A DNA stretch of 64,000 nt, taken from NCBI GenBank assembly GCA_032622095.1, contig CP136066.1:153723152-153787151 (forward strand). Direction: 5' to 3'. The stretch comes from Siphonodentalium dalli (lineage: Eukaryota > Mollusca > Scaphopoda > Gadilida > Siphonodentaliidae). The notes under the pieces are model-generated. The model searched no databases and was not told the origin of the DNA. It worked only from the letters and a program-made list of their open reading frames with translations. Made by a program: the position numbers and the translations under genes. Shown here in pieces: positions 9,001 to 55,503 of the stretch (its first letter is position 1; every line of letters begins with the position of its first letter).

Positions 9001-9862
9001 GAACGAGTCATTTTGGAGTCATTCGGCCAAAAAACATGGCTGCCAGCAGCCATCTTGGATTTTACTCTTTGTATGACTAAATCCTTTAGCACGGGCTACA
9101 GGTCGTACCTTTAGTCTGATCATCATAAAATTTGTCATGGCTGTTGAAATTGGAATGTAGATGGGAACGAGTTATTTTGGGGTCATTTGGACAAAAAACA
9201 TGGCCACCAGCAGCCATCTTGGATTTCAAAATTTAATCCATTAGCACGGGCCACAGGTCGTACTGTTCGTCTGATCATCATGAAATTTGTCATGGATGAT
9301 AATATTGACATGTAGATGGGAACGAGTAATTTTGGGGTCATTCAGCCAAATAACATGGCCGTCAGCAGCCATCTTGGATGACTAAATTCTTTAGCACGGG
9401 CTGCAGGTCGTACCTTTAGTCTGATCATCATAAAATTTGTCATGGATGTCAACAATGACATGTAGATGGGAATGAGTCATTTTGGGGTCATTCAGCCAAA
9501 AAACATGGTCGCCAGCAGCCATCTTGGATTTTACTCTTTGTATGACTAAATCCTTTAGCACGAGCTACAGGTTGTACCTTTAGTCTGATCATCATAAAAT
9601 TTGTCATGAATGTTAATAATGACATGTAGATGGAAACGAGTCATTTTGGGGTCATTCGGCCAAAAAACATGGCCGCAAGCAGCCAACTTGGATTTTACTC
9701 TTTGTATGACTAAATTCTTTAGCATGGGCTACAGGTCGTACCTTTAGTCTGATCGTCATAAAATTTGTCATGGATTTTAACGATGACATGTAGATGGGAA
9801 CGACTCATTTTGGGGTCATTCGGCCGAAAACATGGCCACCAGCAGCCATCTTGGATTTTACT
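1..9862. repeat. 162-bp satellite array with higher-order repeat (pearl-like core monomers)
   Basis: About 61 head-to-tail monomers of 160-163 bp fill this stretch. Each carries the same landmarks: GATCATCATGAAATTTGTCA, GTAGATGGGAACGAGT, CATGGCCGCCAGCAGCCATC and TTTAGCACGGGCTACAGG. Monomer variants recur in a fixed order. The variant with 'cctactttttgtctg' falls at about 61, 2001, 3131, 4907, 6037, 7977 and 8943, giving spacings of 1940, 1130, 1776, 1130 and 1940. This is a 19-monomer block of 3070 bp, with one 18-monomer version of 2906 bp lacking the monomer seen near 740 and 6720. Copies one block apart are nearly identical; monomers within a block differ clearly. After about 8900 the order decays, as expected at an array edge. 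The 79- and 110-residue minus-strand ORFs here are by-products of the repeat. The array lies upstream of the first visible ACP6-like exon, so it is probably intronic. Confidence 0.95.
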
Positions 9863-14300: not shown

Positions 14301-17300
14301 TAACTTCGGAATTTTTTATAATCGTTATAAAAATAACGAATGGCGGCCGAATATTAGATTATATGCGCCCAATGGACATTATATATATATATTATCGGTA
14401 TATTGAAAGAAAATATTATTGTTTTTTCAGCACCCTATTCCTTTAACCATCGTGCAAAATAGTCATACTTTTCGATCAAAAAATCAACAACATTACGATA
14501 CAGACTCAAAAGGTCTCCCATCAACGACAACAAATGTTAGAAGGGCTGCATCAAAAAAAAAAATTGTGTCTGGCATAATTATGCGTTTGGGGACGAAATG
14601 TTGGCCCATCGTGGACTGTTTCTTGGGTGCAGAATCATGATCACCTACTTGCGAATTTTCTGGAAGTTCAACTTTCGGCTTTTTTGAATTTTCCGTCTGT
14701 GTCGTTCTCTCGAACAGAGCGGGGTGCTTCTGCTGGACATGCAGCCTAAGGTGTGTTGTTGTACCCGTGGGTTGAACAGACAAAAGCGTGGTGCAGTGCT
14801 TACACGCATATTTGTTCTCGCCTTTTAATAAATTGAACAGGCAACGGAACTCAGCCATTTTGGTTTTGTATTATTTTGTAAACACGCGCCTCAGGAATTC
14901 CCAATTACGTCACTTCAATAGTCATTACGACATTACCTACCTTGGTTCTATTTATAGATTATTGGTCGACGCAGCGATCCGTTTGATCTCGATGTCTCGA
15001 GCTGCACGATTATTTCTTTGTTTATAGGGCATAACAATTGGGTTGTTTTCATCGGGTTATGACAGTTGAATGAGTTGATTGCCTATATATGATGTCTGAT
15101 CATGAATGATTCGAAAATACTCGAATCGGACAGTCGAATCGAATTGAATCAGGACGACCGATTCACGAATCGAATCGAATCTCGAAGCTTCGCAGGGGCC
15201 TAATGACAATTTCCATTGAAATACTAAAATTTTCCTTTCCATGTAACTTTTAAATAAAATAGTGAAATGTTAAGCTCAATGTGTAAAATCAGCCAATTTG
15301 TAAAATGACTGAAATTTTCAGTCAATTTGTAAAATGCCTGTTTCACTCAATCACTTTACAAATTGACTGAAATTATTTTTCAACATTTTAAGAGCAGAAA
15401 TCACAAACTCACAATTCCTTGCTGAGAATGAAGACAAGATTTATCAGATAATAAATAGCAGTTCTGCATTAATTAGTCGCTTGATTTAGCTTGCATTCAT
15501 CACATAACTGTACCTGTATTAACACTAATGATGGAAGCTGGTGAATGACTTCCCAGCCTCAAATAATTAACGAGCTGGACATCTTAGCTCAATTTGCCAT
15601 TTAATCCTGGCAATCTGCTTGTAATCAATCCATTGTGCAGCATTATGTCATTCTCCTGAGACTTAGTGTCGCAACATGAGAAGCTGGATGATCCAGACAG
15701 AATGGTGCAAGTTATAGAAACATTCTTCTGCAAACCATCGATTAATTATCCCCAATAATCAGACATCACATTATTATAAATTGTTAACCATGTGACTTCC
15801 TTTACAAAAACTAGCGCTAGTGGTTAACACATTCTAATGCCCCCCTATAGCACCACAAGCATGATCCAGTGTGAAAACTGACCCAGCACTAGCTGAAGGA
15901 TGGGGTGCACAGGCACTACAGGCCCACAAGTGGTCTACCAGCTCACCCGAGCTACAGTAATGCTCTAAGTAATCGACTTCTTAACCACAGCAGAATTATT
16001 GGTAACTTTTCAGGATTTAGTCGGAAATATGGCTTGTTGCCATTCATCAGAAAGCTCTCCCCAAGAGCTTTTCGATGAATGGCAACAATCCATATTTCCG
16101 ACTAAATCCTGAAAAGTTACCCATAATTTTGCTGTGGTTAAGAAGTCGATTACTTAGAGCATTACTGTAGATCAAATAAATTATAACTAATTAAATATAC
16201 AAATTTTTCAGTTTTTTTAATATAAATTCTTTTTTTGGGGGAGGGGGTAGGTGATGGCAATGTTAGGGGAAATGGGGGGGGGGGAGTGCAAAGGGGAGGG
16301 GGTGAGTTTTGACCCCCTACATTGATCACAATTTTAAGCAGTTGTTATCATGTCTGATATAACATATGTTAATTGCGGTTAACTGTTGGACCGAAATATT
16401 TTGGCCGAATTTTTTAACTTAATGGGGGATGTCAGGTTGGCCACAAATTTTAACTTTATTGGGGATGTCAGGTTTGAATTTTCCAAAAGTCGGAGAGCTT
16501 GAAGTACCAGTTGTAAAATTCCAACCTAAGAGGGATGTGTAAAAGGAATTTTGTGAACATAGGACTGTGGTCTGGAGAACCTCCAGTTATGTCCCTGTTT
16601 AGAACAGTTTCTGCTTGTCTTAAGTGATTTTGACAAGTATTGACAGTTGTAGTTCCAGTCTTCTCAGACGTTGCAGCCATAAAAATTTCACACTGGAACA
16701 ACCGGGTGCTTGTCTTTGAATGTGCCGCCTGTAGACCTGTTCAGATTTTTCTTGTATATGTTTGCATGTTTGTGTTCCGGAGATTACAAATTTAGCAGAA
16801 AACTATGGTTTGCCCAGTGCAATGTCCCATTTCTGGTCTAAAACAAACATTATTGCCGAAGCTTTTTGTAAAATGTTGAAAAAGAAGTGATAAACTCCTA
16901 ATTGTTCAATCTTCCGTGATTGATTCAGAAAAGAAAATCAGATGATATCATCCAGCAGGCTCACATCAACAGGCCACGGTGGACGCGATAAGATGCAGAA
17001 AGCGCTTCATATGTATGCCAACATCTCCTCTGATTGTAGAGAGCTGTTCCAAGTCAATTTGTGTTGTCTGCCAGCAGAAGCGAAAACGTGAAATGGCAAA
17101 ATGTGTTGTTAAACCGATTCATTCAAAGGACTTCACTTCTGGAGGCCAGGTGGATTTAGTGGACATGCAGTCGATGCTTTCTGGTTCCTTCAAATGGATT
17201 ATGATATACCAAGATTACCTGACCAAGTACTGCATACTGAGGCCTTTGATATCTAAAAGAGCTGCTGAGGTAGCCTATCAACTAATGGACATTTTTGCAG

Positions 17301-20300
17301 TATCACAAAAATTGAATTAAAAAAAGAATAACTGTCAAAATGACACATTAGCAAGAAAAAATGCTATAGATAATTTAATAAGACAGAACAAGAAAAAGTA
17401 TAAGTTTCAAAAACAGAGATTATTCAAGTGTGCATGTGATAATAGATATATTGTTATAAGAATTTATTTTTTCATGTTTAATGTATATTTATTATGTACA
17501 ACTTTAATATGTAATTGAGACAGACTATGAAAATAAAAATAAATTATAAAAAAAAAAAAAAAAAAACTAATGAACATTTTCCTATTATTCGGGGTGACAC
17601 AAATCTATCTCGCAGAATGGACAATAATAGAAAGACGATGACATTCTTGGTTTGCCATGAACTTGTTTTTGTTTTCATGAATGCTTTCTTGTATAAAGAT
17701 CATAAGCCCACACTGACTTTATCATTCATTGCCATTATATCAAATCTGTTGTTGCATCTTGGAAAGTTTAGAGGCAATTTACAGTAATGCCCTAAATAAT
17801 CGACTCCTTAACCACAGCAGAATTATGGGTAATTTTTCAGGATTTAGTCGGCAATATGGCTTGAAAAATTACCAATAATTCTGCTGTGGTTAAGGAGTCG
17901 ATTATTTAGGGCATTACTGTATGAGAGGGGAACATACATTTTGGAGGTGTTTAGATGTTTTTCTTTCTTTGATGTAGGGTGGAATAGCTTCCGGACAACT
18001 AACTAGCACAGGAGAGCAGCAGCTTTATAACTTTGGTGAGGAGCTCAGGCGACAATATGTTGATAAGATGAAATTTATTGAGCCAGAGTTCAGCCATGAG
18101 GATATATAGTGAGTTGATTTCATGATAATATTGAAATATTGTTTTGTGTATAGTTAACGTGGTGCATGGCATTCACGAATAACTGGACTGTGTGTAAGGC
18201 AGTCATGTGAAAAATTAATAAGATTACCTGTGGATGCTGTATGTTAACCACTTGACCGTGGTTGAACGGCAGTACAACCGCTGTCATTAATGCCCTACAA
18301 ACTTGTTAAAGGGGTTGATAAATTAGCTGCATATGAGTTGATATACATTTATACAGAGATTATCCTACCCTTATTGGGAAATAATCCCAGGCCCCATCAA
18401 TAATGATCCAATTGGGAACTTTCCAAGCCTTGAAATAGTGTGCCTGTCATTTGCAGAATGATGTCCCCAGAGGGTGAATTTAGTGATACCCTGCACAGCA
18501 GGCTAGATCACTAAATTCACCCTCTGGGGACTTCATTTTGCTTATAAGCCTCATCTTCTGGGAAGTATCTATAGTCTCAAATTAACAAATTAAAAAGTTT
18601 TTAGTTACTTTTTCCCATCTGTTCAGTTTCTGTATTCCCTAATTTGCAGAAGATAAAATACATAATTGAGGTTACTAATGGGTGAACATCACCAACTTCA
18701 ACTGGGGAACTTCAGTCTGATCCTAGGTCTCCCATAGCAGTTGAGGCCTTAGCAGATTGAGCTTCCCAGAGGGTGAATTTGGTGATGATAGCCCACCGAG
18801 CGGCATAACGTCACTAAATCCACCCTCTGGGGACCTCATTCTGCAAATGACAGACACACTATTTCAAGTCTTGAAACTTTCAATCGGCGAATTTGCATTG
18901 GCCTTTCTCCAGCTGTAAATAAATAATATAAACTAATATGTTGAATAGTACTGTATACTGGTAGTTGATTATCTAATCACATGCAAACTTACAAAATTTG
19001 ATGTAAATCTTTGGGATCCGCATTCTAGAATCAGGCAATCTAATTTATCATTTATGTGAAATTGTAGAGTAGAAATTGGGAAATTTTTTCTAGTTTTGGC
19101 ATTGGGAAAGGGGCCTATATTTTGCCTCTTTCACTAACAAAGATAATCCCTGCTGTACATGTTATAACTTGATCACACCAATGTGTCATTCCATGTTTAT
19201 TATAGACATGATATATCTATGTTTATACTAAGTACTCACAAAAGTATGAGTTTGATTACTAATATTGTGATTTATAATATACAAACCTACCAATATATGG
19301 AACGAAAAAGTTGAGTTACTTGTTCTATCTAAATTGATATATGATATTGTACTCCGCTTGCAGTATGTTGGAATTTATCCAGTTCGTTCATTCAGAAAGT
19401 AGTGATTTACCTACATTTTATACAATAGTGAAGACCTTTCAGGAATATTTTTAGGTCCCTATTCCCAATAGGAAATAGTCCGTTTTATTCCCAAATTCTG
19501 ACCTGAAAGTTTATTGTTTTCTGAATTCCCATAATTATATGATTTCAAGTCTTTTTGCTCATTTGCATAAATATGAATTGACCATTTAAGAAATACATTA
19601 AACTATTTGATTACATTGATTTTCACAATGAAAGTTTCTTCCCATATATTCTCTATATACATGTATTCCCAATTGTTAGCTGGTATGGCGCAAATTTTCC
19701 CAAAAGGGCCTGGGACCCTTTCACAAATTGGATAGAAGAATCCCTGCCTTTTCCAAAAATGTCATTGTCAAGAACTTTGTCCAAGGACCAAAAGGATTTT
19801 TTTATTTAACTTCTGGATTTTGCTCTATTTCACAAAAAATAAACCAATTTGTGTACAAAATATATCTCCATTGTGTATCAATTGTTGATATGTTCTGTTT
19901 ACAGCATACGATCAACAAACACTAACAGGACAACAAACTCATTGCGATGTCTTCTTGCTGGACTTTTTGGTCGTAGAGAGCTGAATAAAAAAGGTAGAGT
20001 AACCAAAATTAATTGGATCTAGATTTCAAGTTTCTTACACAGGGTTACCAACAGTAGTAAGTATCCTGGTTTTCCCTGGAAAGAAAAATATTTGGTAAAT
20101 TTTTGGTAATTTCTGAAATTCTTTGACCATTTTTCAGAAACTTTGACCAAATTGAAAAACCAAAATCTACATCATTGAGAAAACCTAAACAATAGAATAA
20201 AAAATAAAAAAATGCAAGGCTAGTGAATAAAATGCATGCCCGATAACAAAATAAGTGATCAATTTTGAGACATTGGGGTATTGTATATCAACATAAATTA

Positions 20301-26300: not shown

Positions 26301-29300
26301 TGGACTAATGTAGATAGTGTTGAAACGATTAGTGAATTTCAGAGTCGACTAGTCGAGGCCCAAAAGTCGCGTTGCGTCGACTAGTCGGTACCCGATATCA
26401 AAACTTTCAAACATAACATTGTACGGAAAATTCATCGTACACGGCGTACACTGATGACTGATGCAATGACAGTCTATTGCGTTGCGCATTTCCCTGCATA
26501 CACACCAATTTATTTGGGAAATAATAATGTAAACATCTTGATATTTATCCAACACACTGAATCTAATTATATAATTAGACATGTGGTGGATAATGATTAG
26601 AAACACGACATTTATACAGGTTTTAAATTTAATATCAGCGTTCGAGATTATTTCGGTTAGTCACGTGATCACCAATAAACCGGTGCCGAGCGGTGTCACT
26701 ATAAAATGTTAATGTTCCGACTAAATACGCCCTATAGTATGGGCTACATTGTAGAATATGATAGCCAGTTCTTAATGTCAGTATCATTTATATACGGCAG
26801 CACCAATGACGTCATCTTAAGCGACCTTCACCCAGCGTCGCATCATAACCTGACGGTGCAAGATCAATTGAAATATACACAGTGTATATAAAAGCGGTCT
26901 CGGACAAACGACAAAGCTGCGTCAATCATTGCCATCATGTTTTTGACCTCAAACGACGAGTGAGACATTGTGTTGTCAATTTCATTTGTTCAATTAATAG
27001 TCGGGGTCACCGGTCCGTGTGTGTCTATACTAGTAACACTGTCAATTCCGGGTGCCACCAAACGTTATACTTACCATAACTTACGTGCAGTTAACACCGT
27101 TTATGCCGGAATTGATCTTGAAAACGTTATACATGAAACTAATACACTATATTCCGACTAGTCGACGGCAAAATTCAGAGTCGACGTTCTGACATTTCAG
27201 CGTCGTCTACGACTAGTCGATTAATCGTTTCAACCTTAAATGTAGACTATTGAACAAGCTACGAATTCCGATTTCGTTTGAAAGATTTCGCTACCATTCA
27301 CATTATGCCGCTATAAATATCCCCTGTAGATAAACCCTGATAAACCTTACATGCATAATTACATGATTAATGATCTGGATACCATCAGCACAATTAATGC
27401 ACCCACGGAAATGATCGACTTGCGTAACATACTTAGCTTTGGATTGCTTTGTGATTATCTCAGGTGCATGTAAATGGCTACTTTTCCATGACAAATAACA
27501 AAATTTTCACCCAACGGGACAAACCATGGTCTTCCCTTCGAGTTATATGTTTCCCCAATACGGACTCATTAAAATCTCCCTGGCGGAAACCCTGTTGAGG
27601 GTGAATTTGGTGATGCTAGCCTGCTGTGCAGAATAGCATCACAACATTCCCCCTCTGGGACTTCATTCTGCAAATGACGGACACACTATATGCAGGCTTG
27701 TAGTAATACTACATATATTTATTAAGAAATTGTTTGTTTGAACCATCTGTGTAACCAACACCACATACCAGTTTTCTAGTTTGGGATGTTAATACAGTAA
27801 TGCCGTACATAATCAACTCTTTAACCACAGCAGAATTATGGGTAATTTTTAGTCAGAAATATGGCTTGTTGCCATTCATCGGAAAGCTCTCAGTGACAGC
27901 TTTCCGATGATTGGCAACAAGCCATATTTCCGACAAATCCTGAAAAATTACCCATAATGCTGTGGTTAAGTAGTCGATTACTTAGGGCACTACTGTACCT
28001 CTATCAACAGGTAGATAATCAGATTTCATATCAGAGAGGTAGGACAATTGAGTATGATGGTAATTTTGTCACAACAAATCCTCTTTCTTTAAGGGTATCC
28101 GTAAGTTGATGTAGAGCCTATTGGTTTATTGTTTTATTATAATCCACTGGAATGATCAGAATTATTAAGAATTATGACTGCAAAATACTGTTGCAGGGGC
28201 AATTCATGTATTTGGTCTTTGTTTAGACTAATCCAGTTGTACAGACCAAACAAATAAAGTTCCAACTTCCCATGGAGTTTTGAATATTCATGATTCCATA
28301 TATGGAATTCATGAATATTAAAAAGTTCCATATATGGAAAGCTACTCCAGAACTTTGACCTGTAGCACTGAATGTGCAGAACGGGGCTGGATGGATCCCA
28401 ATATGGTAGTGACTCAGTGATCTAGCTTATTGGTAACATACAGACAAGGAAGGCATCACATTTTGAAAGTCTGGATTTCGTCGATGTCGGTGTGATCTGT
28501 TGTCTATCCTGATTGAGCGCCTTAATATAATGTGTCTTACCTCTGTAGGTGTTTATTACCTGTGATTCATGAATATATGATAATCTTGCATTTGTTGTGG
28601 CCAATTGTATTTTCAATAATGTTCATATGTATGCTAAAAATTTGTAAGGGAACACTTGTTTGGTTTTGATTACATGCTATGACTCGATAAGGTTGATTTT
28701 AGAAGCATGCCTTGTCCCGACTCCAGTCTATTCATCATCTATACATATTAAAGAGTAGAATCTGTCTGTCCATATTTTTCTCCCAGACTGCTGGTCTGAT
28801 TTCAAAAAAATTTGGTATGGTGACTCGTGGTACCCTGGCATTAGTTTTTAAAAATTTTGATTTATTAAATAATATTTAATTAAATAAATAACAAAACAAA
28901 AATAAAAGCTCACTATGGGCCTATTTCAGAATCAAACCAAGGCAACATCAAACGTGGGCCAATGCTCCCGAAACATTAAGACTTAAGAAACCAGCCAAAC
29001 ACTACACATACATCACTTATATCAAGGAAGTATCTCGACAGGAAACAGGATAGTTTAAACACAGCAAAAGTATACCCTGCATAGGAACATATAGAACACC
29101 ACTGAGTCTTCTCATATATTTGTCTGTTAATAGGTTTCATTCTACATGCAGACTTTGTAGCAATTGACATTATTTGCTACATAACTGATTGTTTAAGTGA
29201 ACATGATTACTTATTATCACTTTCTCTGGGAGATTCCCTTTCTTGCTCAGTAAAAGGACTGTGATGCCTATTCAAATATCGAGTGTAATAGACTTGAATA

Positions 29301-32300
29301 ATTAGGTTCATAAAATCTTCCCGGGCGAAAAATTTATTACGCCAGTTAAATGTTGCGTGCACAATACGCGAGATTTCCAGGTTTGGAAATTCCCTGTGGT
29401 TTGGTATAAGCTCAGGAGTCATACTATATTTCTCTCAATTTAAAATTTGCTTGTACCAATTGATGCACATAAAAATATATAGTTAGCAGGCTTAAGGCAA
29501 TGGATGTGGATAGGCTGAATTGGTTGTTATCCCATGGTTTTGGGTAAAACTCAAGTTATCAAAATTGGTAAAAAGTCGCCCAGATTTGCTGAAACTGGTA
29601 ACAAGACACCCAGATTCAATTAAGTCTCGTCTGGTTGATATGTTTTGGACTTGGCCGAGTCTCCCTCACGAGATGTATGTCGATAGCCGAGTGGTCAGCT
29701 TGTTCGACTTGTAAGTTTTTCAGCACCATTGTGAGTTTGCAACCAACGGTAGGCTATTGAGTTTCCCTGAACAGTGGCTTGGTCGGATTAAGCAGTGTGT
29801 GACTGCAGAGTCGTACACTTTTCAAATCCTGCACAAAGTTGTGACCCTTGACTTTGCCTTGAGAAAGGTCACACATACTGTGACGGCTTCATAGTACCTA
29901 GACACAAACTAGGTACTTGGCATGTTGGGCAACCGTAAGTTTGTGTGGAGGTGTGTGGGCATGTTGGGGGTGACCACCAGATGGGAGCCTTAAATTTTTT
30001 CAAATCTAGTAGCCATCTTGAATTTTACATTCAAGCCTTGAAATAGGGTGTCTGTCATTTGCAGAATGAGGTTCCCAGAGGGTGAATTTAGTGATGCTAC
30101 CCCACATAGCAGGCTAGCATCACCAAATTCACCCTCTGGGAACCTCATTCTGCTGAGGTGTAAGCAGAATGAGGTCCCCAAAGGGTGAATTTGGTGATGC
30201 TAGCCTGCTATGCGGGGTAGCATTACTAAATTCACCCTCTGGGGACCTCATTCTGCAAATGACAGGCACACTATTTCAAGGCTTGTTTACATTTGAATCA
30301 ATCGCCACATCCTACAGCCCATATTTATTGGAGAAATGTTTTTAAATTTGACAGGAATGGATTTAACTTTTTGCATGACTAAATACTTTGGTATGCCCAA
30401 CAGCCTACTTTCCGCATTCTTTATCGCACAATTGACTGTAATGTATGACATTACCCCTCTCCAAATTGAGCTGCAATGTCATTGAAAATTTTATATTACA
30501 GACCCATGGACTGAAAATACCAGAGTTTCTCAAAGAACACATGGATTTTATAGAAGTGAATGCATCAAAGGCTATTATGATTATGTTCGCAGGCTATCAC
30601 AGGTATCTACTCTTCTGCACTTTCCTCAGAATGAGGTCCCCAGATGGTTAGAATCACCAAATTCACCTTCTGCTTAGGCCTCATATTCTGGGAAGTATCT
30701 ATTGTCTCTAATTAAAATTGTTTTTAGTTACTTTTTCCCTTCTGTTGAGTTTCTACATCCTCTAATATGCAGAACATAAAATGGATAATCGGGGTGACTT
30801 ATGGGTGAACATCACCAAATTTAACTGAGGAACTTCAATCTGATCCTAGGTCTCCCATAGCAGGTGAGGCCCAATCAGAATGAGGTCCCCAGAGTGTGAA
30901 TTTGGTGATGCTAGCCCACTGCAGGATATCGCCACTAAATTAACCCTCTGGGAACCTCATTCTGCTAATGACAGACACTCTAAATTCAGGATTGCTGCAC
31001 ACTTTACTTGAAGTTAAAGATAGTATATCTCTTCCTAATAAGTTTATATAGATTTCAGGGTATAAAATAAATGATAAGAATTTAAGACACCTGTCCAGAC
31101 ATGCTTCTATCAAATATTATTGATTTTATGTTGATTTTTTTCTGGTATAATACATACAACCATTCGGGACAGATTTGATTTATGTGCTATTTTTAGAACA
31201 CAAACTTCAGGCGACCATGCTGAAAGGTTCGGAGCATACACACAGAGAGAACTCTATCTTGTTAGCACCCTCAATCAAACCAAATTTCATTTTAACTAAC
31301 AGAATTCACGGCTCGGTTTATAGACAAATAATATACACAATCTTCAGTTGATCTGCATTTCATTCATAAAAACGCTTTTTGTCTTGATATCAGGTTTTAT
31401 AATAATTATGTTGCTGTAAATGTTGCAGGGAAGAGATACACTATCTTTGAAGTTGTGGGTCTGGATTGAACAAGCATTTTTTTATTTATGCTTACTTCTG
31501 ATAATCAGATTAATTAACAGTACGAGGTGATAAAATTTAATTTTATTCCAACATAATAGTGGAAGTGGTAGCCCAGTTGTTAGGGTGACAGACTTGTAAT
31601 GGTGTTAACGCACCGGCGTGAGTTTGCGCCCCGCCGGTGGACTATCGTGGACAACAGTGGCTTGGCCGGATTAAGCGGTGTGTGTGCTATATAGAGCTAC
31701 ACGCTGTTTCAAATCTCATGCCAGTTTGTGACCCTTGGGCAAGGTCACTTGTACTGTGCTTGCTTCGTTGTACCTAGATGAGAAATAGGGACCTGGTTGT
31801 TGGGTAAGTGTAAGCCGCTCTTGTGAAGCGCCTGTAAGATGGCAGCATGCAGAAGACTCGGCATTACTCAACAGCTTGGGTAATAATGTGAAGCGCTTAG
31901 GGCCCTCCCCGGGATAGGTGCTATACAAGCACCATTTAATATTATTAATTACCGTACTCTAGCCTCTAGAAAAAAAAGTGATCCATAACTGACTAGTAAA
32001 CCAAATGGCTTTAACCTCTTTGCTTCTACAGTAATTCTCTAAGTAATCGACTTCTTAACCACAGCAGAATTATGGGTAACTTTATTCTGCTGTGGTTAAG
32101 AAGTCGATACTTAGAGCATTACTGTATATCTTGGGTATGGATCTGCTTCAGTGCTATCGCAGTCATTTGTTATTGCCTCGAAGCAATAAAGATTGAGTGT
32201 GTTCAAAAGTGTGTGTTTGAAAGTTTGAAGCAATGTTAGATGTTGCTGGCAGAGCTTGCTTGGATAGCAATAACAGAAGTTGCAATAATGTAATTACATG

Positions 32301-35300: not shown

Positions 35301-38300
35301 CAACACACACAATTCTGTTATTGGAGAGTTAGCAATAATAAATACAAGAACAAAATTGATCTAGTTCATTTACAGAATGAGGTCCCCAGAGGGTGAATTT
35401 AGTGATGCTATCTCGCTCAGCAGCTGGATTCGCCAAATTCATCATCTGGCGACCTCATTCTACTTAGGCGTCATCTTCTGGGAAGTATCTATAGTCTCAA
35501 ATTAACATTGTTTTTAGTTACTTTATCCTCTAATTTGCAGAAGATAAAATAGCAGTTGAGGCCTAAGCAGAATGAGGTTCCCAGAGGGTGAATTTGGTGA
35601 CGATAGCCGGCTGTGTGGGGTAGTGTCACTAAATTCACCCTCTAGGGACCTCATTCTGCATATGACAGACACACTATTTGCAGGCTTGCTTATGTCCCCA
35701 TAATAAATTGAGAGAATCATATAGGCATGTGAATGTGGTGAATGTTATCACATGAGTTTTTAGCTCAACTTTACTTTGTAAAGTTTGAGCTATTGCCATG
35801 GCTTTGTCGTCCGTCGTCCGTGTGTGCGTAATGCGTCAACAATAGAGGCTACAGGTCGTACCTTTGATCGGATCATTATGAAATTTGTCATAGCTGTTGA
35901 CATCAACATTTGTACCGGAATGATTCATTTTTGGGTCATTCGGAAAAAAAACATGGCCGCCAGCGACCATCTTAGATTTCAAAATTCAATCCATTAGCAC
36001 GGGCTACAGGCCGTACTGTTCGTCTGATCATCATGAAATTTGTCATGCATGTTAATATTGACATGTAGATAGGAACGAGTAATTTTGGGGTCATTCGGCC
36101 AAAAAACATGGCTGCCAGCAGCCATCTTCGATTTTACTATTTGCATGACTAAATCCTTTAGCACGGGCTACAGGTCATACCTTTAGTCAGATCATCATAA
36201 AATTTGTTATGGATGTTAACAATGACATGTAGATGGGAACGAGTCAATTTTGGGTTATTCCGGCAAAAAACATGGCCGTCAGCAGCCATCTTGGATTTTA
36301 CTCTTTGTATGACTAAATCCTTTAGCACGGGCTACAGGTCGTACCTTTAGTCTGATAATCATGAAATTTGTCATGGCTGTTGAAATTGGAATGTAGATGG
36401 GAACAAGTTATTTTGGGGTCATTCAGACAAAAAACATGGCCGCCAGTGGCCATCTTTGTTTTCAAAATTCAATCCATTAGCACGGGCCACAGGTCGCACT
36501 GTTCGTCTGATCATCATGAAATTTGTCATGGATGTTAATATTGACATGTAGATGGGAACGAGTCATTTTGGGGTCATTCGGCCCAAAAACATGGCCGCCA
36601 GCAGCCATCTTTGATTTAAAAATTTAATCCATTAGCACGGGCCACAGTCAGTACTGTTCGTCTGATCATCATGAAATTTGTCATGGATGTTAATATTGAC
36701 ATGTAGATGGGAACGAGTACTTTTTGGGTCATTTGGCCCAAAAACATGGCCGCCAGCAGCCATCTTGGATTTTACTCTTTGTATTACTAAATTCTTTAGC
36801 ATGGGCTACAGGTCGTACCTTTAGTCAGATCATCATAAAATTTGTCATGGATGTTAACAATGACATGTAGATGGGAACAAGTCATTTTTGGGTTATTCGG
36901 GCAAAAAACATGGTCGCCAGCAGCCATCTTGGATTTTACTCTTTGTGTGACTAAATCCTTTAGCACGGGCTACAAAGATGGCCACCTTTAGTCGGATAAT
37001 CATGAAATTTGTCATGGCTGTTGAAATTGGAATGTAGATGGGAAACGAGTCATTTTGGGGTCATTCGGACAAAAAACATGGCCGCCAGTGGCCATCTTTG
37101 TTTTCAAAATTCAATCCATTAGCACGGGCCACAGGTCGCACTGTTTGTCTGATCATCATGGAATTTGTCATGGATGTTAATATTGACATGTAGATGGGAA
37201 CGAGTCATTTTGGGGTCATTCGGCCCAAAAACATGGCCGCCAGCAGCCGTCTTGGATTTTACACTTTGTATGACTAAATCCTTTAGCACGGGCTACAGGT
37301 CCTACTTTTAGTCTGATCATCATAAAATTTGTCATCAAATGTTAATAATCACATTTAGATGGGAACGAGTCATTTTGGGGTCATTCGGCCAAAAAACATG
37401 TTCGCCAGCAGCCATCTTGGATTTTACTCTTTGTATGACTAAATTCTTTAGCATGGGCTACAGGTCGTACCTTTAGTCTGATCATCATAAAATTTGTCAT
37501 GGATGTTAACGATGACATGTAGATGGGAACGACTCATTTTGGGGTCATTCGGCTTAAAACATGGCCGCCAGCAGCCATCTTGGATTTTACTCTTTGTATG
37601 ACTAAATTCTTTAGCACGGGCTACATGTCGTACCTTTAGTCTGATCATCATAAAATTTGTCATGAATGTTAATAATGAAATGTAGATGGGAACAAGTCAT
37701 ATTTGGGTCAAAATTCAATCCATTAGCACGGGCTACAGGTCGTACCTTTAGTCTGATCATCATGAAATTTGTCATGAATGTTAACATTGACATGTAAATG
37801 GGAACGAGTAATTTTGGGGTCATTCGGCAAAAAAACATGGCCGCCAGCAGCCATTTTGGATTTTACTCTTTGTATGACTAAATCCTTTAGCACAGGCTAC
37901 ATGTCGTACCTTTAGTCTGATCACCATGAATTTGTCATGGCTGTTGAAATTGGAATGTAGATGGGAACGAGTCATTTTCGAGTCATTCGGCCCAAAAACA
38001 TGGCCGCCGTCAGCCATCTTAGATTTACTCTTTGCAGGACTAAATTCTTTGGCACGGCCTACAGGTCGTACCTTTGGGGAAAAAACATGGCCGCCAGTGG
38101 CCATCTTGGATTTCAATATTCAATCCATTAGCACTGGCTAGAGGTCGTACTGTTTGTCTGATCATCATGAAATTTGTCATGGATATTAATATTTTTTTTA
38201 TATAATTTTCTGTTTTTCTGTATGAGGGTACCTTCATGGTGTAATCAACTCCTTTACAGTTTTGATCGTAGATATTTGAAACTTCCTTTTTTAGCTCAAC

Positions 38301-41300
38301 TTCACTTTGTAATGTTTGAGCTATTGCCATGGCTTTGTCGTCCGTCGTGCGTGTGTGCGTGATGCGTCAACAATTTCCTTTAGCACGGGCTACAGGTCGT
38401 ACCTTTGGTCAGATCATTATGAAATTTGTCATAGCTGTTGACATTGACATGTAGATGGGAACGAGTCATTTTGGGTTCATTCGGGAAAAAATCTTGGCCG
38501 TAAACTTGGGTTGTCATGTAGATGGGAACGAGTTATTTTGGGGTTATTCGGCAAAAAACATGGCCATCAGCCGCCATTTTGGATTTCAAAATTCAATCCA
38601 TTGGCGCGGGCTACAGGTCATACTGCTCGTCTGATCATCATGAAATTTGTCATGGATGTTAATATTGACATGTAGATGGGAGCGAGTCATTTTGGGGTCA
38701 TTCGGCCAAAAAAAATGGCCCCCAGAAGCCATCTTGGATTTAACTCTTTGCATGACTAAATCCTTTGGCGCGGCCTACAGGTTGTAGCTTTGGTCAGATC
38801 TTCATGAAATTTGTCACGGATGTTAACAATGACATGTAGATGGGAATTATTCATTTTGGAGTCATTTGGACAAAAAACATGGCTGCCAGCAGCCATCTTG
38901 GATTTTACTCTTTGCATGACTAAATCCTTTGACACAGGCTACAGATCGTATCATTTGTCAGATCATCATGAAATTTGTACTGGATGTTAATAATGACATG
39001 TAAATGGGAACGAGTCTTTTTGGGGTCATTTGGCAAAAAAACATGGCTGCCAGCGGCCATCTTAGATTTTACTCTTTGCATAACTAGGCCTTTAAACTTT
39101 CCACATTCCTAATCACTCCATTGACTTTAACACATGAAATTATTCCCTTTCCAAGTTGAGCTACAGTGTCATTGACACTTTCATTTTGGATGCTATCACA
39201 CTCGACAAAAGCCATCTTGGATTTCAAAATTCAATCCATTAGCACGGGCTACAGGCCGTACTGTTCGTCTTATTGTCATGAAATTTGTCATGAATGTTAA
39301 CAATGACATGTAGATGGGAACGAGTCATTTTGGGGTCATTCGGCCAAAAAACATGGCCGCCAGCAGCCATCTTGGATTTTACTCTTTGTATGACTAAATC
39401 CTTTAGCACGGGCTTCAGGTCGTACCTTTAGTCTGATCGTCATAAAATTTGTCATGAATGTTAATAATGACATGTAGATGGGAACGAGTCATTTTGGGGT
39501 CATTCGGCCAAAAAACATGGCTGCCAGCCATCTTGGATTTTACTCTTTGTATGACTAAATCCTTTAGCACGGGCTACAGTTCGTACCCTTAGTCTGATAA
39601 TCATAAAATTTGTCATGGATGTTAACAATGGCATGTAGATGGGAAACGAGTCATTTTGGGGTCATTCCGACAAAAAACATGGCCGCCAGCAGCCATCTTT
39701 GATTTCAAAATTTAATTCATTAGCACGGGCCACAGGTCGTACTGTTCGTCTTATCATCATGAAATTTGTCATGGATATTAATATTGACATGTAGATGGGA
39801 ACGAGTGATTTTGGGGTCATTCGGGCAAAAAACATGGCCGCCAGCAGCCATCTTGGATTTTACTCTTTGTATGACTAAATTCTTTAGCACGGGCTACAGG
39901 TCGTACCTTTAGTCTGATCATCATAAAATCTGTCATGAATGTTAACAATGACATGTATATGGGAACGAGTCATTTTGGGGTCATTCGGCCGAAAAACATG
40001 GCCGCCAGCAGCCATCTTGGATTTTACTCTTTGTATGACTAAATTCTTTAGCACGGGCTACAGGTCGTACCTCTAGTCTGATCATCATAAAATCTGTCAT
40101 GAATGTTAATAATGACATGTAGATGGGAACGAGTCATTTTGGGGGTCATTCGGCCAAAAAACATGGCTGCCAGCAGCATCTTGGATTTTACTCTTTGTAT
40201 GACTAAATCGTTGAGCACGGGCTACAGTTCGTACCTTTAGTATTATCATCATAAAATTTGTCATGGATGTTAACAATGGCAATGTAGATGGGAACGAGTC
40301 ATTTTGGGGTCAATCGGCCGAAAAACATGGCCGCCAGCAGCCATCTTTGATTTCAAAATTTAAGTCATTAGCATGGGCCACAGGTCGTACTGTTTGTCTG
40401 ATCATCATGAAATTTGTCACGGATGTTAATATTGACATGTAGATGGGAACAAGTAATTTTGGGGTCATTCGGCCAAAAAACATGGCCGCCAGCAGCCATC
40501 TTGGATTTTACTCTTTGTATGACTAAATCCTTTAGCACGGGCTTCAGGTCGTACCTTTAGTCTTATCATCATAAAATTTGTCATCAAATGTTAACAATGA
40601 CATGTAGATGGGAACGAGTAATTTTGGGGTTATTCAGCCGAAAAACATGGCCGCCAGCAGCCATCTTGGATTTTACTCTTTGTATGACTAAATCCTTTAG
40701 CACGGGCTACAGTTCGTACCCTTAGTCTGATAATCATAAAATTTGTCATGGATGTTAACAATGGCATGTAGATGGGAACGAGTCATTTTGGGGTCATTCC
40801 GACAAAAAACATGGCCGCCAGCAGCCATCTTTGATTTCAAAATTTAATTCATTAGCACGGGCCACAGGTCGTACTGTTCGTCTTATCATCATGAAATTTG
40901 TCATGGATATTAATATTGACATGTAGATGGGAACGAGTGATTTTGGGGTCATTCGGGCAAAAAACATGGCCGCCAGCAGCCATCTTGGATTTTACTCTTT
41001 GTATGACTAAATCCTTTAGCACGGGCTTCAGGTCGTACCTTTAGTCTTATCATCATAAAATTTGTCATCAAATGTTAACAATGACATGTAGATGGGAACG
41101 AGTCATTTTGGGGTCATTCCGACAAAAAACATGGCCGCCAGCAGCCATCTTTGATTTCAAAATTTAATTCATTAGCACGGGCCACAGGTCGTACTGTTCG
41201 TCTTATCATCATGAAATTTGTCATGGATATTAATATTGACATGTAGATGGGAACGAGTGATTTTGGGGTCATTCGGGCAAAAAACATGGCCGCCAGCAGC

Positions 41301-44300
41301 CATCTTGGATTTTACTCTTTGTATGACTAAATCCTTTAGCACGGGCTTCAGGTCGTACCTTTAGTCTTATCATCATAAAATTTGTCATCAAATGTTAACA
41401 ATGACATGTAGATGGGAACGAGTAATTTTGGGGTTATTCAGCCGAAAAACATGGCCGCCAGCAGCCATCTTGGATTTTACTCTTTGTATGACTAAATCCT
41501 TTAGCACAGGCTTCAGGTCGTACCTTTAGTCTGATCATCATAAAATTTGTCATGAAAGTTAATAATGACATGTAGATGGGAACGGATCATTTTGGGGTCA
41601 TTCGGCCAAAAAAAAAGGCCGCCAGCAGCGATCTTGGATTTTACTCTTTGTATGACTAAATACTTTAGCACAGGCTAAAGTTCGTACCTTTAGTCTGATT
41701 ATCATAAAATGTGTCATGGATGTTAACAATGGCATGTGGATGGGAACGAATCATTTTGGGGTCATTCGGCCGAAAAACATTGTCGCCAGCGGCCATCTTT
41801 GATTTCAAAATTCAATCCATTAGCACAGGCTACAGGTCGTACTGTTAGTCTGATCATCATGAAATTTGTCATGGATGTTAATATTGACATGTAGATGAGA
41901 ACGAGTGATTTTGGGGTCGTTCGGCCAAAACAAATGGCCGCCAGCAGCCATCTTGGATTTTACTCTTTGCATGACTAAATCCTTCCCCGTGGGCTACAGG
42001 TCGTAGCTTTGATCGGAACTTCATAAAATTTGTCATGGATGTTAACAATGACATGTAGATGGGAACGAGTTATTTTGGGGTCGTTCAGCCAAAAAACATG
42101 GCCACCAGCAGCCATCTTGGATTTTACTCTTGGCATGACTAAATCCTTTGGCGCGGGCTACAGGTCGTACCTTTTGTCTGATCTTTATGCAATTTATCAT
42201 GAATGTTGACATTGACATGTAGATGGGAACGAGTGATTTTGGGGTCATTCGGCCAAAAAACATGGCCGCTGGTGGCCATCTTGGATTTCAAAATTAAATC
42301 CATTGGCGAGGGCTACAGGTTGTACTGTTAGTCTGATCATCATGAAATTTATCATGGATGTTAATATTAGCATGTAGACGGGAACGAGTGATTTTGGGGT
42401 CGTTCGGCCAAAAAACATGGCTGCCAGCAGCCATCTTGGAGTTTACTGTTTGCATGACTAAATCCTTTCCCGTGGGCTGCAGGTCGTACCTTTGGTAGGA
42501 TCTTCATGAAATTTGGCATGGCTGTTGACATTGACATGTAGATGGGAACGAGTCATTTTGGGGTCATTCGACCAAAAAATATGGCCACTGGTGGCCCATC
42601 TTGGATTTCAAAATTAAATCCATTGACGTGGGCGGGCTACATGTCATACTATTCGTCTGATAATCATGAAATTTGTCATGGATGTTAATATTGACATGTA
42701 GATCGGAACGAGTCATTTTGGGGTCGTTCGGCAAAAAAACATGGCCGCCAGCAACCATCTTGGATTTTACTCTTTGCACGACTAAATCATTTGGAGTAGG
42801 CTACAGGTTGTAGCTTTGGTCGGATCTTCATAAAATTTGTCATGGATGTTAATAATGACATGTAGATGGGAACGAGTTCTTTTGGGGTCATTCGGCCAAA
42901 AAACATGGCCACCAGCAGCCATCTTGGATTTTACTATTTGCATGACTAAATCCTTTGGCACGGGTAAGACATTTCAATCAGCATTTTTCCTATTTCTCCA
43001 TTTACTGTAAACCATTAAATTATTCCCCTACCTAAGTTGAGCTACAGTGTCATTGACACTTTCATTTGGGTTTCTGCAATCATTCGAACAAATATGAACC
43101 AATATCAAAATTATTAATCCAAATTTTTCTTTAAAGTTAAAAATCTTTTTTGTTGGGTTTACGGATATTAAATTCGGGTTGAATTTGCCACGGTGGGGGT
43201 ATGCTAGCACTCGAGTGCACACCTCTTGTTGTTTTTGTTTGATTTCCATATCAGTTAGTCATCTAATCAACACCATATGAGGTTGAGTTGATGTTGTTGT
43301 AGTACCAGTTGGGTTTTCATTCAAGGCATAATTTATGCAAGCTATTGGGATCGCTCTATCACACTTGGTTGAAATTACTTCATAGGCGTTCAGCGATTCC
43401 TGCATTTTTGGATATAACCGATTTTGACTCTTGCTCTTTTTTGATCAGGCTCCAACTTTAAAAAGTTTGCATAGCTTATTAGCGAAGAATAAAAGCTTTA
43501 TTGACAGAAATATGGGTGTAATGGATGCGTGATGAGTTCACTGTTTCTCACAGACCACAATAATCGCCATATTTTGGTTACTGGGCCATAAACCCCATAG
43601 TTAAGAAATTACTCGGACTGTTTTCTGATGTCATGGTTCAGATCAGGATCTAACCAGCTAATTATGTTCTGACTCTAACTTGATCAATACATTTTATTCA
43701 CTCTGTTTTTTGCTCTCACTTCAAATGGCTATGATTATATGAGCCTGAATGTGTAGAAATGTAAAGGAGTGACAATTTTGAAATATATTGTCAAATTTGA
43801 TGTATTTATTGTCCTATAAGGAGAAAACATATCATCTATATTCAACATACTTATGTTTGTTTGAATTTTAAGAGCCAATTAAGAAGATCGCGCTAATAAT
43901 TAGCATTTTTCATGATGTTCCAGTTGTTTTCTTAAATAATCACCATTAAAATTGTATTCAAAGTCGGAACCGAATCCAAAACTGCAGGAATTGTTGAACC
44001 CCAGTGAGACTGAAATAACATAATCAACCGAAATATAGCAATAGGGGTGTAATAAAATGCTATATTTCAGGAGAGAATTGTTAAAGGTTGTACAGGGACC
44101 ATTTGCCCGTATAATACATTCAAAGAATCCATGACCAAACTGTGCATCACTAGAGAAGATTACTGCAAGCTGTGCAATTCTGACATTTATGAAAAACTAG
44201 GAAAAGGTAACTTACTTAACCGTTTGAGTGCCAAGTCCGATTTTTGTATCAACCCATATACCCTGTGCCAATGCATTCTCTTATATATGCGAGTCGACCA

Positions 44301-51530: not shown

Positions 51531-51940
51531 GTAGGCCTATGTACTACTTGACTTTGTAATGCTACTGGTTGCAATGATTGGTCATAAGGGGACCAAAACT
51601 CTCTAGCTCTCTCTCTCTCTCATAGGAGCTTGTGTCGCGCTCCGTTGTATAGGCCTAAAATATCCATCATATAATAGTAGTGATGCGGACCGGACCACAT
51701 GCCTGGACCGGTCCAAAACGGTCCGGTCCACCTATAATAGGCTATATGTAGGCCTATGTACTACTTGACTTTGTATTGCTACTGGTTGCAATGATTGGTC
51801 ATAAGGGGACCAAAACTCTCTAGCTCTCTCTCTCTCTCTCTCATAGGAGCTTGTGTCGCGCTCCGTTGTATAGGCCTAAAATATCCATCATATAATAGTA
51901 GTGATGCAGTCCGGTACACATGCCTGGAATACCTATAATA
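51531..51940. repeat. 217-bp tandem duplication including a hAT-like tip
   Basis: Segments 51531-51747 and 51748-51940 repeat the same order: 'gtaggcctatgtactacttg', (CT)n, 'tgtcgcgctccgttgtatag', 'tataatagtagtgatgc'. The duplication therefore contains the target site and first bases of the hAT-like element twice. The (CT)n tracts are at 51604-51621 and 51823-51843. Confidence 0.85.
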
Positions 51941-51944
51941 TAAC

Positions 51945-52122
51945 AATAACATGATTTTTGAGGGCATTATGGTTTCTTAACGGCCCGATAGGAATGATTA
52001 ACAGCCAGAGGGCCTATAAGCGGCCCGAGACGAAGTCGAGGGCTGCTAATAGGCACGAGGGCTGTTAATCATTCCGGGAGGGCCGTTAAGAAACCATAAT
52101 GCCCGAAAAATATCATGTTATT
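51945..52122. repeat. 178-bp imperfect palindrome downstream of the recombinase gene
   Basis: 'aataacatgatttttgaggg' with 'cattatggtttcttaacggc' is mirrored by 'gccgttaagaaaccataatg' and 'tatcatgttatt'. The loop contains 'gacgaagtcgagggc' and 'gcacgagggc'. It lies about 170 bp past the recombinase stop codon and may be a foldback MITE or a structural end of the recombinase element. Confidence 0.7.
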
Positions 52123-52288
52123 ACTATTATTTTCACACACTATCATTATGTAAGTGTCGTACCCCGGCAAGTTCAAATATTACACAACATCTCTAAATTA
52201 ACACAATTTAATCAAAATATAGAATAGTATTCAATATCATCAACATTTGATCACAATACTTTAATTGTTCTATGGAGTTTCAGTCAAT

Positions 52289-53785
52289 TCACTTCTCTAC
52301 TCCATAATTGTAATTTATTGTGCACTGATGAACTGTAGCGCCAGCCATGAAATTGTGCGTTGTGTGCATTTGACGCTGGAATGAATTGTGAGTTGATGAT
52401 GCTGAAGTTGGCACATCAATATTAAAAATAGTTCCAGTTGGTGCTGCTGCAGGAATGGTGATGATGCCGTCATCGGACGATGTCAAGTTCATACATGTAG
52501 GTTGCGGTAAGGGTCCTAAGGGAATTATCTCGGTCTGGTCGGTAACCCCAATTATATTAGGATCCGTAGTTGTGTTTGACGAAATAGTACTGGTGTCAAT
52601 ACTAAAGGCGCCCACCGCGAAATCATCATTGTCCGACAGTTCATAAATACCGGGATTGATGCTCATAGATGCATCATTTTGAGGGTTGATGCTCATGGAT
52701 GCATTTAGAATGTTTGAACATTCGCGTCTCTGCGCCGTCGATATATCCGTGATATAATGTTTCAGACTGGCAGTATTCTTGTGGTTCGTCACCGAAATTA
52801 TACTCTCTGGATTTACCCCAGCCTGATACAACGTCGTTATTGTTGATGCCCTGACGCTGTGGCATGTGTAGACTTGTGAAAGACCGGCTTTTGTTGAAAT
52901 CTTTTGCATCATATTTGATAAGGTGTTCTTCCCAAGGGGCTCGTTGCGAAACCAGTGCTCATTCGGTCCATATGTGTTCCTCGGTAGTTGAAAAAGTCTG
53001 GTACATGTCGGGTTCTTTCTACTATAATACAATTTGAAAATTGCAACCCCATTGCCATACATTCTTTGGGTATTGTAGTCGATATTACGTTGTTTGTTGC
53101 CACCTTGGTGATTTTTAGTGACCTCCGTTTGCGCCATCTCAATATATTCCACTCCGTCAGAGTCCTGGCTTAAGGCGAACGTTTCTGTCGTCATATGGGT
53201 CCATCCCTCCCTTCCACGTCTACCGAAACAGTAACACAAGTAGAACCATAGCGATTCTAGAAGAACATCTGGTGATGAATCGTAGGTTGAAAAGTACTTG
53301 GACAATTTCTGCATGTCGGCATCTCCAATGCTGGGCTTATGTTTCGGATTATTGCATTTGAAATACAATTTGCATCTCGCCTCAAACATTTTGTTGCTGC
53401 TAGAGAATTCTCTATCCTTAATGATGTTTATTGGTCGGCTTATGGGTGCGGATATAATATGCCTGTGAATTGCTGCCCATAAACATGTCAAAGTGCTCGG
53501 TGTGAGAGAACTGCCGGATTTCTTCGGTTTAACTTCTGCATAAAATTTTCTCAACAGGTCATTTAGATTATCTGTTGATATTGAAGAGAAATCACAACTT
53601 TTGCTTCTTTTTTTAAGCCAGTCTTCGAAGCGTCTCACTCCATAAATTGTTGATCGAGATGTGCTATCCGGTCTAGCACTATTTTCAAGAAAATTTAGTT
53701 GATTTTCGTCTAATTCACTGGATTGAGACATTTTTTTAATTTTAATATCAAATACGCATGGATCGTCTGGTTTGTGTGCAAACAA
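52289..53785 (-). CDS. Crypton/DUF3504-type tyrosine recombinase, intact
   Basis: A 498-codon intronless ORF on the minus strand; Met19 (MSQSSELDENQ, at 53731) is an equally good start. Residues about 45-110 form the N-terminal helical, DNA-binding part. The catalytic set of tyrosine recombinases is complete: Arg in FGRRGREGW (189-192), Lys224 (TEVTKNHQ), His309-x-x-Arg312 (TCHSVRAS), His335 (VTNHKN) and Tyr344 (LKHYI). PLGKNTLSNMMQKISTKAGL at 283-302 is typical of the DUF3504 family (KCTD1, QRICH1, ZMYM proteins), which derives from Cryptons. Residues 362-380 repeat ASMSINP twice; the C-terminal 120 residues are low complexity. Catalytic residues and frame are intact, unlike domesticated relatives, so it is probably an active or recently active mobile recombinase that cuts and joins DNA through a Tyr-DNA link. 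CACGTGATC lies about 10 bp upstream of the ORF. Confidence 0.9.
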   Translation of the reverse strand: MFAHKPDDPCVFDIKIKKMSQSSELDENQLNFLENSARPDSTSRSTIYGVRRFEDWLKKRSKSCDFSSISTDNLNDLLRKFYAEVKPKKSGSSLTPSTLTCLWAAIHRHIISAPISRPINIIKDREFSSSNKMFEARCKLYFKCNNPKHKPSIGDADMQKLSKYFSTYDSSPDVLLESLWFYLCYCFGRRGREGWTHMTTETFALSQDSDGVEYIEMAQTEVTKNHQGGNKQRNIDYNTQRMYGNGVAIFKLYYSRKNPTCTRLFQLPRNTYGPNEHWFRNEPLGKNTLSNMMQKISTKAGLSQVYTCHSVRASTITTLYQAGVNPESIISVTNHKNTASLKHYITDISTAQRRECSNILNASMSINPQNDASMSINPGIYELSDNDDFAVGAFSIDTSTISSNTTTDPNIIGVTDQTEIIPLGPLPQPTCMNLTSSDDGIITIPAAAPTGTIFNIDVPTSASSTHNSFQRQMHTTHNFMAGATVHQCTINYNYGVEK

Positions 53786-55065
53786 TTATCACGTGATCAA
53801 AACAAAAATCATGTGACCAAAATACATCGGAATTAGGCAAAATATCACCGGCATCTGAGACCAAATAACTCGCGTAATAATGCTTAAATTGAAATAATAT
53901 ATACCTGTGTTTACCTTAGGATACCATTTAGTTGGGTATGTGTTCTATGTAACACATGACAATCGGGTATTTCTTCGTTAAAAATCTTTATTAGAATAAA
54001 GAAATTCCGAAAAATTCAATGGCAGTTTGGTCACATGACGTGTCGGGCCATCTCGTGCTAACGACGAGCAAATTCCATTAGCGCCCTAGGGCCATAATGA
54101 ACTTACATATTCACGTAATTTAGTTAGTGTTATGGGATTTTATCGCAGGATAAAACGTCATTAATATTCTAGAGAACGCCCTTATAGGTGGAAATAATAG
54201 GCTATATGTTAATGAATTCTCTGTTTTCTCAAAGTTTTACTCTGTATAGTACAACCTATAAGGTTACTGAGTTCAGTGCATTGCAATGAGTCCATATTGT
54301 ATGCATCATTGTCTGTCTCTGGTGGGATATACTGGGAATGATGCACGATAATAGTATTTCTAGTAATGCGAACATGCAAAACTAATTAAATGTATTGGAC
54401 AGATATATAGCTAGGGTCAGATGTGTTATAACCAATCTAACGTGGCACTCAACTATTCGTATGCATGATTTGTATCATACTTAATTTCATTAAATTGAAA
54501 TTTAAACAAAATAACTATACTATTATTATCTATTGTCTTCTCTGTATTATTGTTATAATTTTGTTTGTTTGTAAAACATACTCTCCTAGATGGAGGAAAT
54601 AAAGATATATATACCTAAGTACAACTACTATTGGATTAATGTAACTGTCTTGTATATGTACTATGTTTATGACAAATAGTTCCATACTCACTCGGTTGCA
54701 TGTTTGTCGCATTGATAGGGTGCTACAAAGTGTTGGCCAGTGTAGGATAGTAGTTATTAAAAACAATTTAGAACGAAACAAGCAATTTTTATATTTTGAA
54801 AATGTTTTCAGAATGCTTAACATTTTGCGACATCAAAGCAGGCGGCTGGTAATCGGCGACATCAAAGCAGGCGGCCGCCCACACTGGTACTTTCATAAGG
54901 AAAGTGACATGTACAAAGTACATCTATACATTGTTTGCATGGCATCAAACGTTTATTAGATATTAACCACTTGAATGCGTCAATACATCGTTGCTAATTG
55001 ATATGACGGCAAATACGCAATAATATTCGCGATAGTTTATTATAACTGAAGTAAAATAGTGGACC
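53786..55065. other. upstream region of recombinase inside the hAT-like element
   Basis: No second ORF with homology. CACGTGATC at 53790 and 'tcatgtgacc' at about 53808 form an inverted pair near the presumed promoter. A direct repeat of 'gcgacatcaaagcaggcggc' lies at about 54827 and 54857. Confidence 0.45.
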
Positions 55066-55503
55066 GGACCGGAGAGTACCGGACCGGTGGCAAAAAGCGG
55101 TCCGGTCCGGTCCGGTCCAAAGCGGTCCACATCACTATATAATAGTAATAGTAATCAACCCACTGATTACTGGTCGAATATCACGAAGTAGAAGAAAAAG
55201 AAGATATATAGACTCACGGGGAGGCCTGGTATATATGCCTATGCATGAAGCGATTCCTTTGTGCGTTTTGGTGCAGATTCGTTGCCAGAATATCTTAATT
55301 ATTTCCACATAAAATGCTGTTTTTTACTAGTTCTGACAAACAAATATATGTCTTAGTTGATGATAGAAGACATTTTTCTTGAGTTAGGTAACGATATTGG
55401 CCATGCATATATAGAACGAGTGTTTAGTTTCGCGAAATTCAAAATTGTCAATGTCGGGTACAAAAACTCGCCATTAATATGCCAAATACAGTAACAAGAT
55501 CGC

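Follow-up and report, generated by a model that had tools for sequence, protein, structure and literature searches.

How a tyrosine recombinase gene comes to lie between transposon ends of a different class is the question raised by one locus of the scaphopod mollusc Siphonodentalium dalli. In a 64,000-bp stretch of contig CP136066.1 (the window, to which all coordinates refer), such a gene is found inside an element with hAT-like ends and an 8-bp target-site duplication. The initial annotation of this DNA offered two interpretations: a Crypton-like element that had landed in a non-autonomous hAT element, or a mobile unit that combined hAT-type ends with a recombinase cargo. We give a probability of roughly 0.7 to a Crypton-like element nested in an older non-autonomous hAT-like element. 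We favor such ordinary nesting over a new hybrid because a nearby duplicated left end without the insert marks the insertion point.

The outer element extends from 51678 to 55137. Its exact tips, TAGTGATG from 51678 and CATCACTA ending at 55137, are bordered by 8-bp duplications, TATAATAG, at 51670 to 51677 on the left and 55138 to 55145 on the right. GGACCG/CGGTCC repeats are clustered just inside both tips, in the left end at 51678 to 51739 and in the right end at 55061 to 55137 (both plus strand). Tips, duplications, and clusters all lie where the initial annotation had placed them. Together with adjoining bases, the terminal inverted repeat reads TAGTGATGCGGACCG and TAGTGATGTGGACCG, the latter at 55123 to 55137, and matches at 14 of 15 positions (TAGTGATGYGGACCG). 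The end pattern TAGTGATGNGGACCG, with up to two mismatches allowed, was found three times in the window against an expectation of 0.25, and at least three matches were reached in 1 of 100 shuffles. An 8-bp duplication combined with an 8-bp inverted tip is weak evidence by itself, because the window holds five such pairs spaced 80 to 10,000 bp apart, two of them using the same right end (55137), and at least one such pair also turned up in 35 of 100 Markov-generated controls. These controls favor the view that the tips, the target-site duplication, and the 16-bp match described below are not transposon-derived and arose by chance; yet the inverted repeat reaches 14/15, GGACCG clusters are present at both ends, and the 16-bp match exceeds all 2,000 controls, and we regard a chance origin as very improbable. 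What makes the case for hAT-like ends is the 14/15 match of the inverted repeat together with the GGACCG clusters.

A transposase was sought in the right remainder of the outer element (54194 to 55137, plus strand), where the only open reading frames (ORFs) of at least 80 amino acids (aa) are two that overlap, one of 97 and one of 98 aa, both without a Pfam hit at E ≤ 1. Between the outer tips, 1,207 bp lie outside the inner unit, including a tandem duplication; before that duplication the element would have comprised 51678 to 51739 and 54200 to 55137, or 1,000 bp. A second member of this family was not visible within the 64-kb window. If a hAT transposase were supplied from elsewhere, the outer tips may still be able to move, carrying the recombinase as a passenger.

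The tandem duplication, which is absent from the initial annotation, measures 217 to 221 bp and covers the outer left end together with 147 bp of flank. It puts TATAATAGTAGTGATG at both 51670 and 51891, so that there are two candidates for the true left tip. Copy 1 (51531 to 51749, plus strand) comprises the 147 bp of flank and the outer left end, closes in an unbroken ACCTATAATAGGCTATATGT, and then runs back into flank. Copy 2 (51748 to 51940, plus strand) is broken after ACCTATAATA by the recombinase unit. The two flanks, 51531 to 51677 and 51748 to 51898, align with 146 matches, 1 mismatch, and one 4-bp gap inside a CT run, and each is followed by TAGTGATGC. Beyond ACCTATAATA, copy 2 proceeds into TAACAATAACATG, towards the recombinase, and after 2,253 bp ATAATAGGCTATATGT picks up at 54194, past which the outer element carries on to its right tip.

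Positions 51734 to 51749 of copy 1 are identical to 54194 to 54209 over 16 bp, the longest match in 2,000 Markov-generated controls being 14 bp, and exact occurrences of this 16-mer in the window are confined to these two places. ACCTATAATA, in turn, has just two places in the window, 51730 and 51931. The stretch shared by the two matches is exactly ATAATA. Copy 1 thus looks like the outer element prior to insertion; most simply, it is the empty site. Without the insert, the outer element would read ACCTATAATAGGC across the insertion point, and the variant left end that is joined to the insert reads CAGTCCGGTACACATGCCTGGAATACC. For a single window, this appears to be good evidence of where the insertion took place. 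The initial annotation had named recombinase borders internal to the element in other genomic copies, along with empty hAT-like copies, as findings that would speak against a composite mobile unit. The window itself contains evidence of both kinds, with borders at 51940/51941 and 54193/54194 and the uninterrupted copy 1 at 51730 to 51749, a result subject to the template-switching alternative weighed below. The idea of a hybrid element loses its main support.

The inner, Crypton-like unit (51941 to 54193, minus strand) is 2,253 bp long and is flanked by the 6-bp direct repeat ATAATA, at 51935 to 51940 on its left and 54194 to 54199 on its right (both plus strand). Inverted repeats were not seen at its ends, which fits a Crypton: none was found by eye over 50 bases at each end, and among the 25 of 38 inverted pairs listed, none joins the two ends. 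The recombinase gene (52289 to 53731, minus strand, with its ATG at 53731) encodes 480 aa and is the sole ORF of at least 80 aa within the unit. The complete residue set noted in the initial annotation was located at R (171, 172, or 174), K206, H291xxR294, H317, and Y326, positions whose catalytic roles we presume from the familiar motif. The 154 residues that follow Y326 have no Pfam match at E ≤ 1. The gene looks intact enough to assay. Upstream of it, TCATGTGACCAAA at 53809 to 53821 has an exact inverse about 200 bp away, at 54026 to 54038, and a direct near-copy at about 53790; these repeats are possible recombinase or regulatory sites.

Matches to the Pfam families DUF3504 (8.7e-11) and Phage_integrase (3.1e-8) both exceed the curated cutoffs, and the former family was tied to animal Cryptons by Kojima and Jurka in 2011 (PMC3212892). 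A single-sequence structure prediction of the protein had a mean predicted local distance difference test (pLDDT) score of 35.5 and was unusable. A sequence search of the PDB returned nothing significant, the only entries being IntI4 (E 0.092) and a portal protein (E 0.97).

Taken with the sequence just described, nesting suggests the following course. A non-autonomous hAT-like element of about 1.0 kb would have entered the locus and created the 8-bp duplication TATAATAG, as its tips and target-site duplication imply; the observed tandem duplication of the outer left end and 147 bp of flank would have come next; and a Crypton-like element of about 2.25 kb would then have integrated at the ATAATA of the second copy. 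Were the encoded recombinase active and responsible, it would cut and rejoin DNA through its catalytic tyrosine, exchanging a putative circular form with the target at the shared ATAATA and leaving one ATAATA on each side. Circular excision of Cryptons has been proposed by analogy with prokaryotic elements (PMC3212892). The empty copy, the internal borders, the 6-bp repeats, the lack of visible inverted repeats at the inner ends, and the failure to detect a transposase all fit the first of the two interpretations offered in the initial annotation, and the second, a hAT-recombinase mobile unit, is without direct support.

Several points weigh against nesting. The 6-bp repeats and the 154-residue C-terminal stretch depart from the animal Cryptons published in PMC3212892, and the evidence comes from a single locus, with one copy each of the outer element and the inner unit. 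The right side of the empty site extends for only 16 bp (10 past ATAATA) before the duplication junction is reached. ATAATA could itself be microhomology used in a deletion, and alone it is weak evidence, because identity of at least 6 bp across the junction was found at 8,858 of 200,000 random breakpoints of equal spacing, a figure that the window's tandem arrays may inflate.

The same figure lends some weight to an alternative in which the recombinase was original to the outer element and copy 1 is a deletion product of template switching during the tandem duplication. Copying would have jumped from one template to another at the ATAATA microhomology, passed over 2,253 bp, proceeded for about 10 bases, and then returned to the flank. 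The stretch copied past ATAATA is indeed short (10 bp), and short copied stretches occur in multi-switch repair. Such a course, however, needs further coincidences. The skipped segment would happen to contain precisely the gene of a class noted for 4- to 6-bp direct repeats, and it would happen to begin 4 bp short of a long palindrome's outer edge, the chance of a palindrome edge falling within 4 bp of either inner border being about 1% (0.013, computed with all 24 inverted structures in the window). It also requires a hAT-ended element with a recombinase, of which we met no report in the accessible parts of the open-licence literature. We consider this alternative unlikely.

The divergence of the two left ends is a further difficulty for nesting. 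In the left end of copy 2 (51899 to 51940, plus strand), 42 bases align with copy 1, of which 6 are mismatched, and there is a 20-bp gap; the flanks have 1 mismatch in 147 and the 4-bp CT-run gap (Fisher P = 5e-4). Two of the 6 mismatches adjoin the 20-bp gap and depend on where it is placed. A plain tandem duplication should not pile changes into the left end, and nesting as outlined here leaves this divergence unexplained. Gap repair from another member of the family, which perhaps already carried a recombinase, would account for it and would be compatible with a composite that moves. Under that scenario, the resident element would have been excised or broken, and repair of the gap would have copied in a composite from elsewhere that had hAT ends and a Crypton already inside, so that the two left ends would differ in ancestry. 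In favor of this is the strong divergence between the insert-bearing left end and its tandem copy, much greater than that between the flanks, but a second family member is not visible within the window, and we judge this history to be quite improbable.

The palindrome at the left border of the inner unit, also missing from the initial annotation, is 178 nucleotides (nt) long (51945 to 52122) and imperfect (82%), with its outer edge 4 bp inside the border. Folded as DNA, 51930 to 52135 reached -74 kcal/mol, compared with -20.6 (standard deviation, 3.3) for shuffles, none of 200 of which did as well. In itself the palindrome is unremarkable because the window is rich in such structures: its 27 rows of inverted structures comprise 6 spaced inverted repeats and 21 self-palindromes, the latter occupying 18 distinct places if this one is counted. 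The position of its edge within 4 bp of a border is, by contrast, remarkable. The palindrome may be a foldback element in its own right; the longest duplication found to flank it is 4 bp, which neither proves nor excludes an insertion of its own.

At the inner edge of the palindrome, GTGAAAATAATA (52125 to 52136, minus strand) tentatively matches the right end of the inner unit, GTGGAAATAATA, in inverted orientation at 11 of 12 positions and then continues into left-end sequence. Because GTGAAAATAATA is nearly identical to that right end, this edge resembles the expected circle junction. The 12-mer pattern of the right end, with up to one mismatch, matched four times in the window, 52125 to 52136 included, against 0.85 expected, in a comparison made post hoc. 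Gapped local alignment of the right end with the inner edge did not rise above chance, since 673 of 2,000 controls reached the score, with a slice that cut through ATAATA. The region upstream of the recombinase gene was no more similar to the palindrome than controls were, 195 and 58 of 300 reaching the score on the two strands. A rather unlikely reading of these data is that of an animal-type Crypton in which a hairpin of about 180 nt forms the mobile end and is framed by a near-copy, inverted, of the element's circle junction. On that reading, the substrate of the recombinase may be a folded single strand, as for integron integrases, or paired inverted sites, as the internal repeats of DIRS elements suggest. 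Eulor repeats may form hairpins, a property not confirmed in the open-licence literature we consulted. Two vertebrate repeats of that name, Eulor5 and Eulor6, have been classed with Cryptons (PMC5753468). A matching hairpin was looked for at the other end of the inner unit, but the folding of three stretches there, and of one in the 3' portion of the gene, was not better than that of shuffles.

The inner unit was compared with known Cryptons. Like animal CryptonA and CryptonI elements (PMC3212892), it is short, it carries no ORF of at least 80 aa other than that of a DUF3504-type recombinase, and inverted-repeat ends were not seen. In those animal elements, terminal repeats were not found and a C-terminal domain is absent, according to the same source, whereas the unit described here has 6-bp ATAATA repeats, a long palindrome at one border, and 154 residues past the catalytic tyrosine. 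Direct repeats of 4 or 6 bp are reported for the original fungal Cryptons, and the inner unit resembles fungal CryptonF and stramenopile CryptonS elements in its terminal direct repeats, which in those groups are 6 bp, or 5 to 6 bp, long (PMC3212892). It differs from them in that GCR1_C is not among the Pfam matches of its recombinase at E ≤ 1 and in having ATAATA where most CryptonS elements have TATGG termini. DIRS retrotransposons likewise encode a tyrosine recombinase, but the inner unit has no second ORF of at least 80 aa, and hence no reverse transcriptase, and inverted terminal repeats were not seen. The inner unit looks as if it works like a Crypton.

The outer element shares its 8-bp target-site duplication, short inverted repeats, and clustered subterminal repeats with non-autonomous hAT elements (Hermes, PMC10368747; overview, PMC3942097), and it departs from hAT elements proper in that a transposase was not detected among its ORFs of at least 80 aa. 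Measured against the Hermes target preference nTnnnnAn (PMC10368747), TATAATAG has the A at position 7, with A instead of T at position 2. The nearest precedent for a hybrid is MarCry-1_FO of Fusarium oxysporum, a fusion of Crypton and Mariner DDE components in which a Crypton recombinase similarly lies within inverted-repeat ends and a target-site duplication. That element encodes its own DDE transposase and was analyzed in four copies more than 97% identical (PMC3212892), whereas the element described here has no detected transposase, is represented by one copy, and has an empty counterpart next to it. Neither a hAT-Crypton composite nor a Crypton with a palindromic or hairpin end was met in the accessible portions of the open-licence literature, which included PMC3212892, PMC4157794, PMC10368747, PMC3942097, and PMC5753468, Repbase being outside this scope.

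Searches for relatives of the recombinase protein gave 4 pattern stretches in IMG/VR and 23 in GTDB contigs (the query covering 212 of the 480 residues), 0 confirmed in either case, and none in phage records; a degenerate DNA pattern found none, nor did a palindrome pattern in IMG/VR. These missing relatives say little because the collections searched are not meant for animal genomes.

For want of inverted repeats, Cryptons have borders that are difficult to define (PMC3212892). At this locus, the tandem duplication appears to have kept the pre-insertion sequence beside the filled one, and both ends of the inner unit can therefore be placed to the base. The locus also allows a modest test of whether a 6-bp shared core is used by animal Cryptons, as is thought for fungal ones, and of whether a terminal hairpin matters, the hairpin end being the part worth following.

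Elsewhere in the window, a palindrome of 254 nt (92%; 30032 to 30285, within 30024 to 30293) has tips CAAGCCTT with TTTACATT on both sides, the form of a foldback miniature element with an 8-bp duplication. Three others, at 17780 to 17921, 27793 to 27997, and 32027 to 32126, start with TACAGTAAT and end with ATTACTGTA or CACTACTGTA and apparently belong to one miniature family. On the minus strand at 14493 to 14858, a 121-aa ORF has a weak match to the BED zinc finger (E 0.0019; 18.6 bits against a Pfam cutoff of 20.6) and may be a piece of a hAT transposase or of a BED-domain gene. In a search against Rfam, no family attained its gathering score. A tandem repeat of about 164 bp forms two large arrays, one of about 61 copies at 1 to 9862, which reaches the left edge of the window, and one of about 44 copies at 35847 to 42964.

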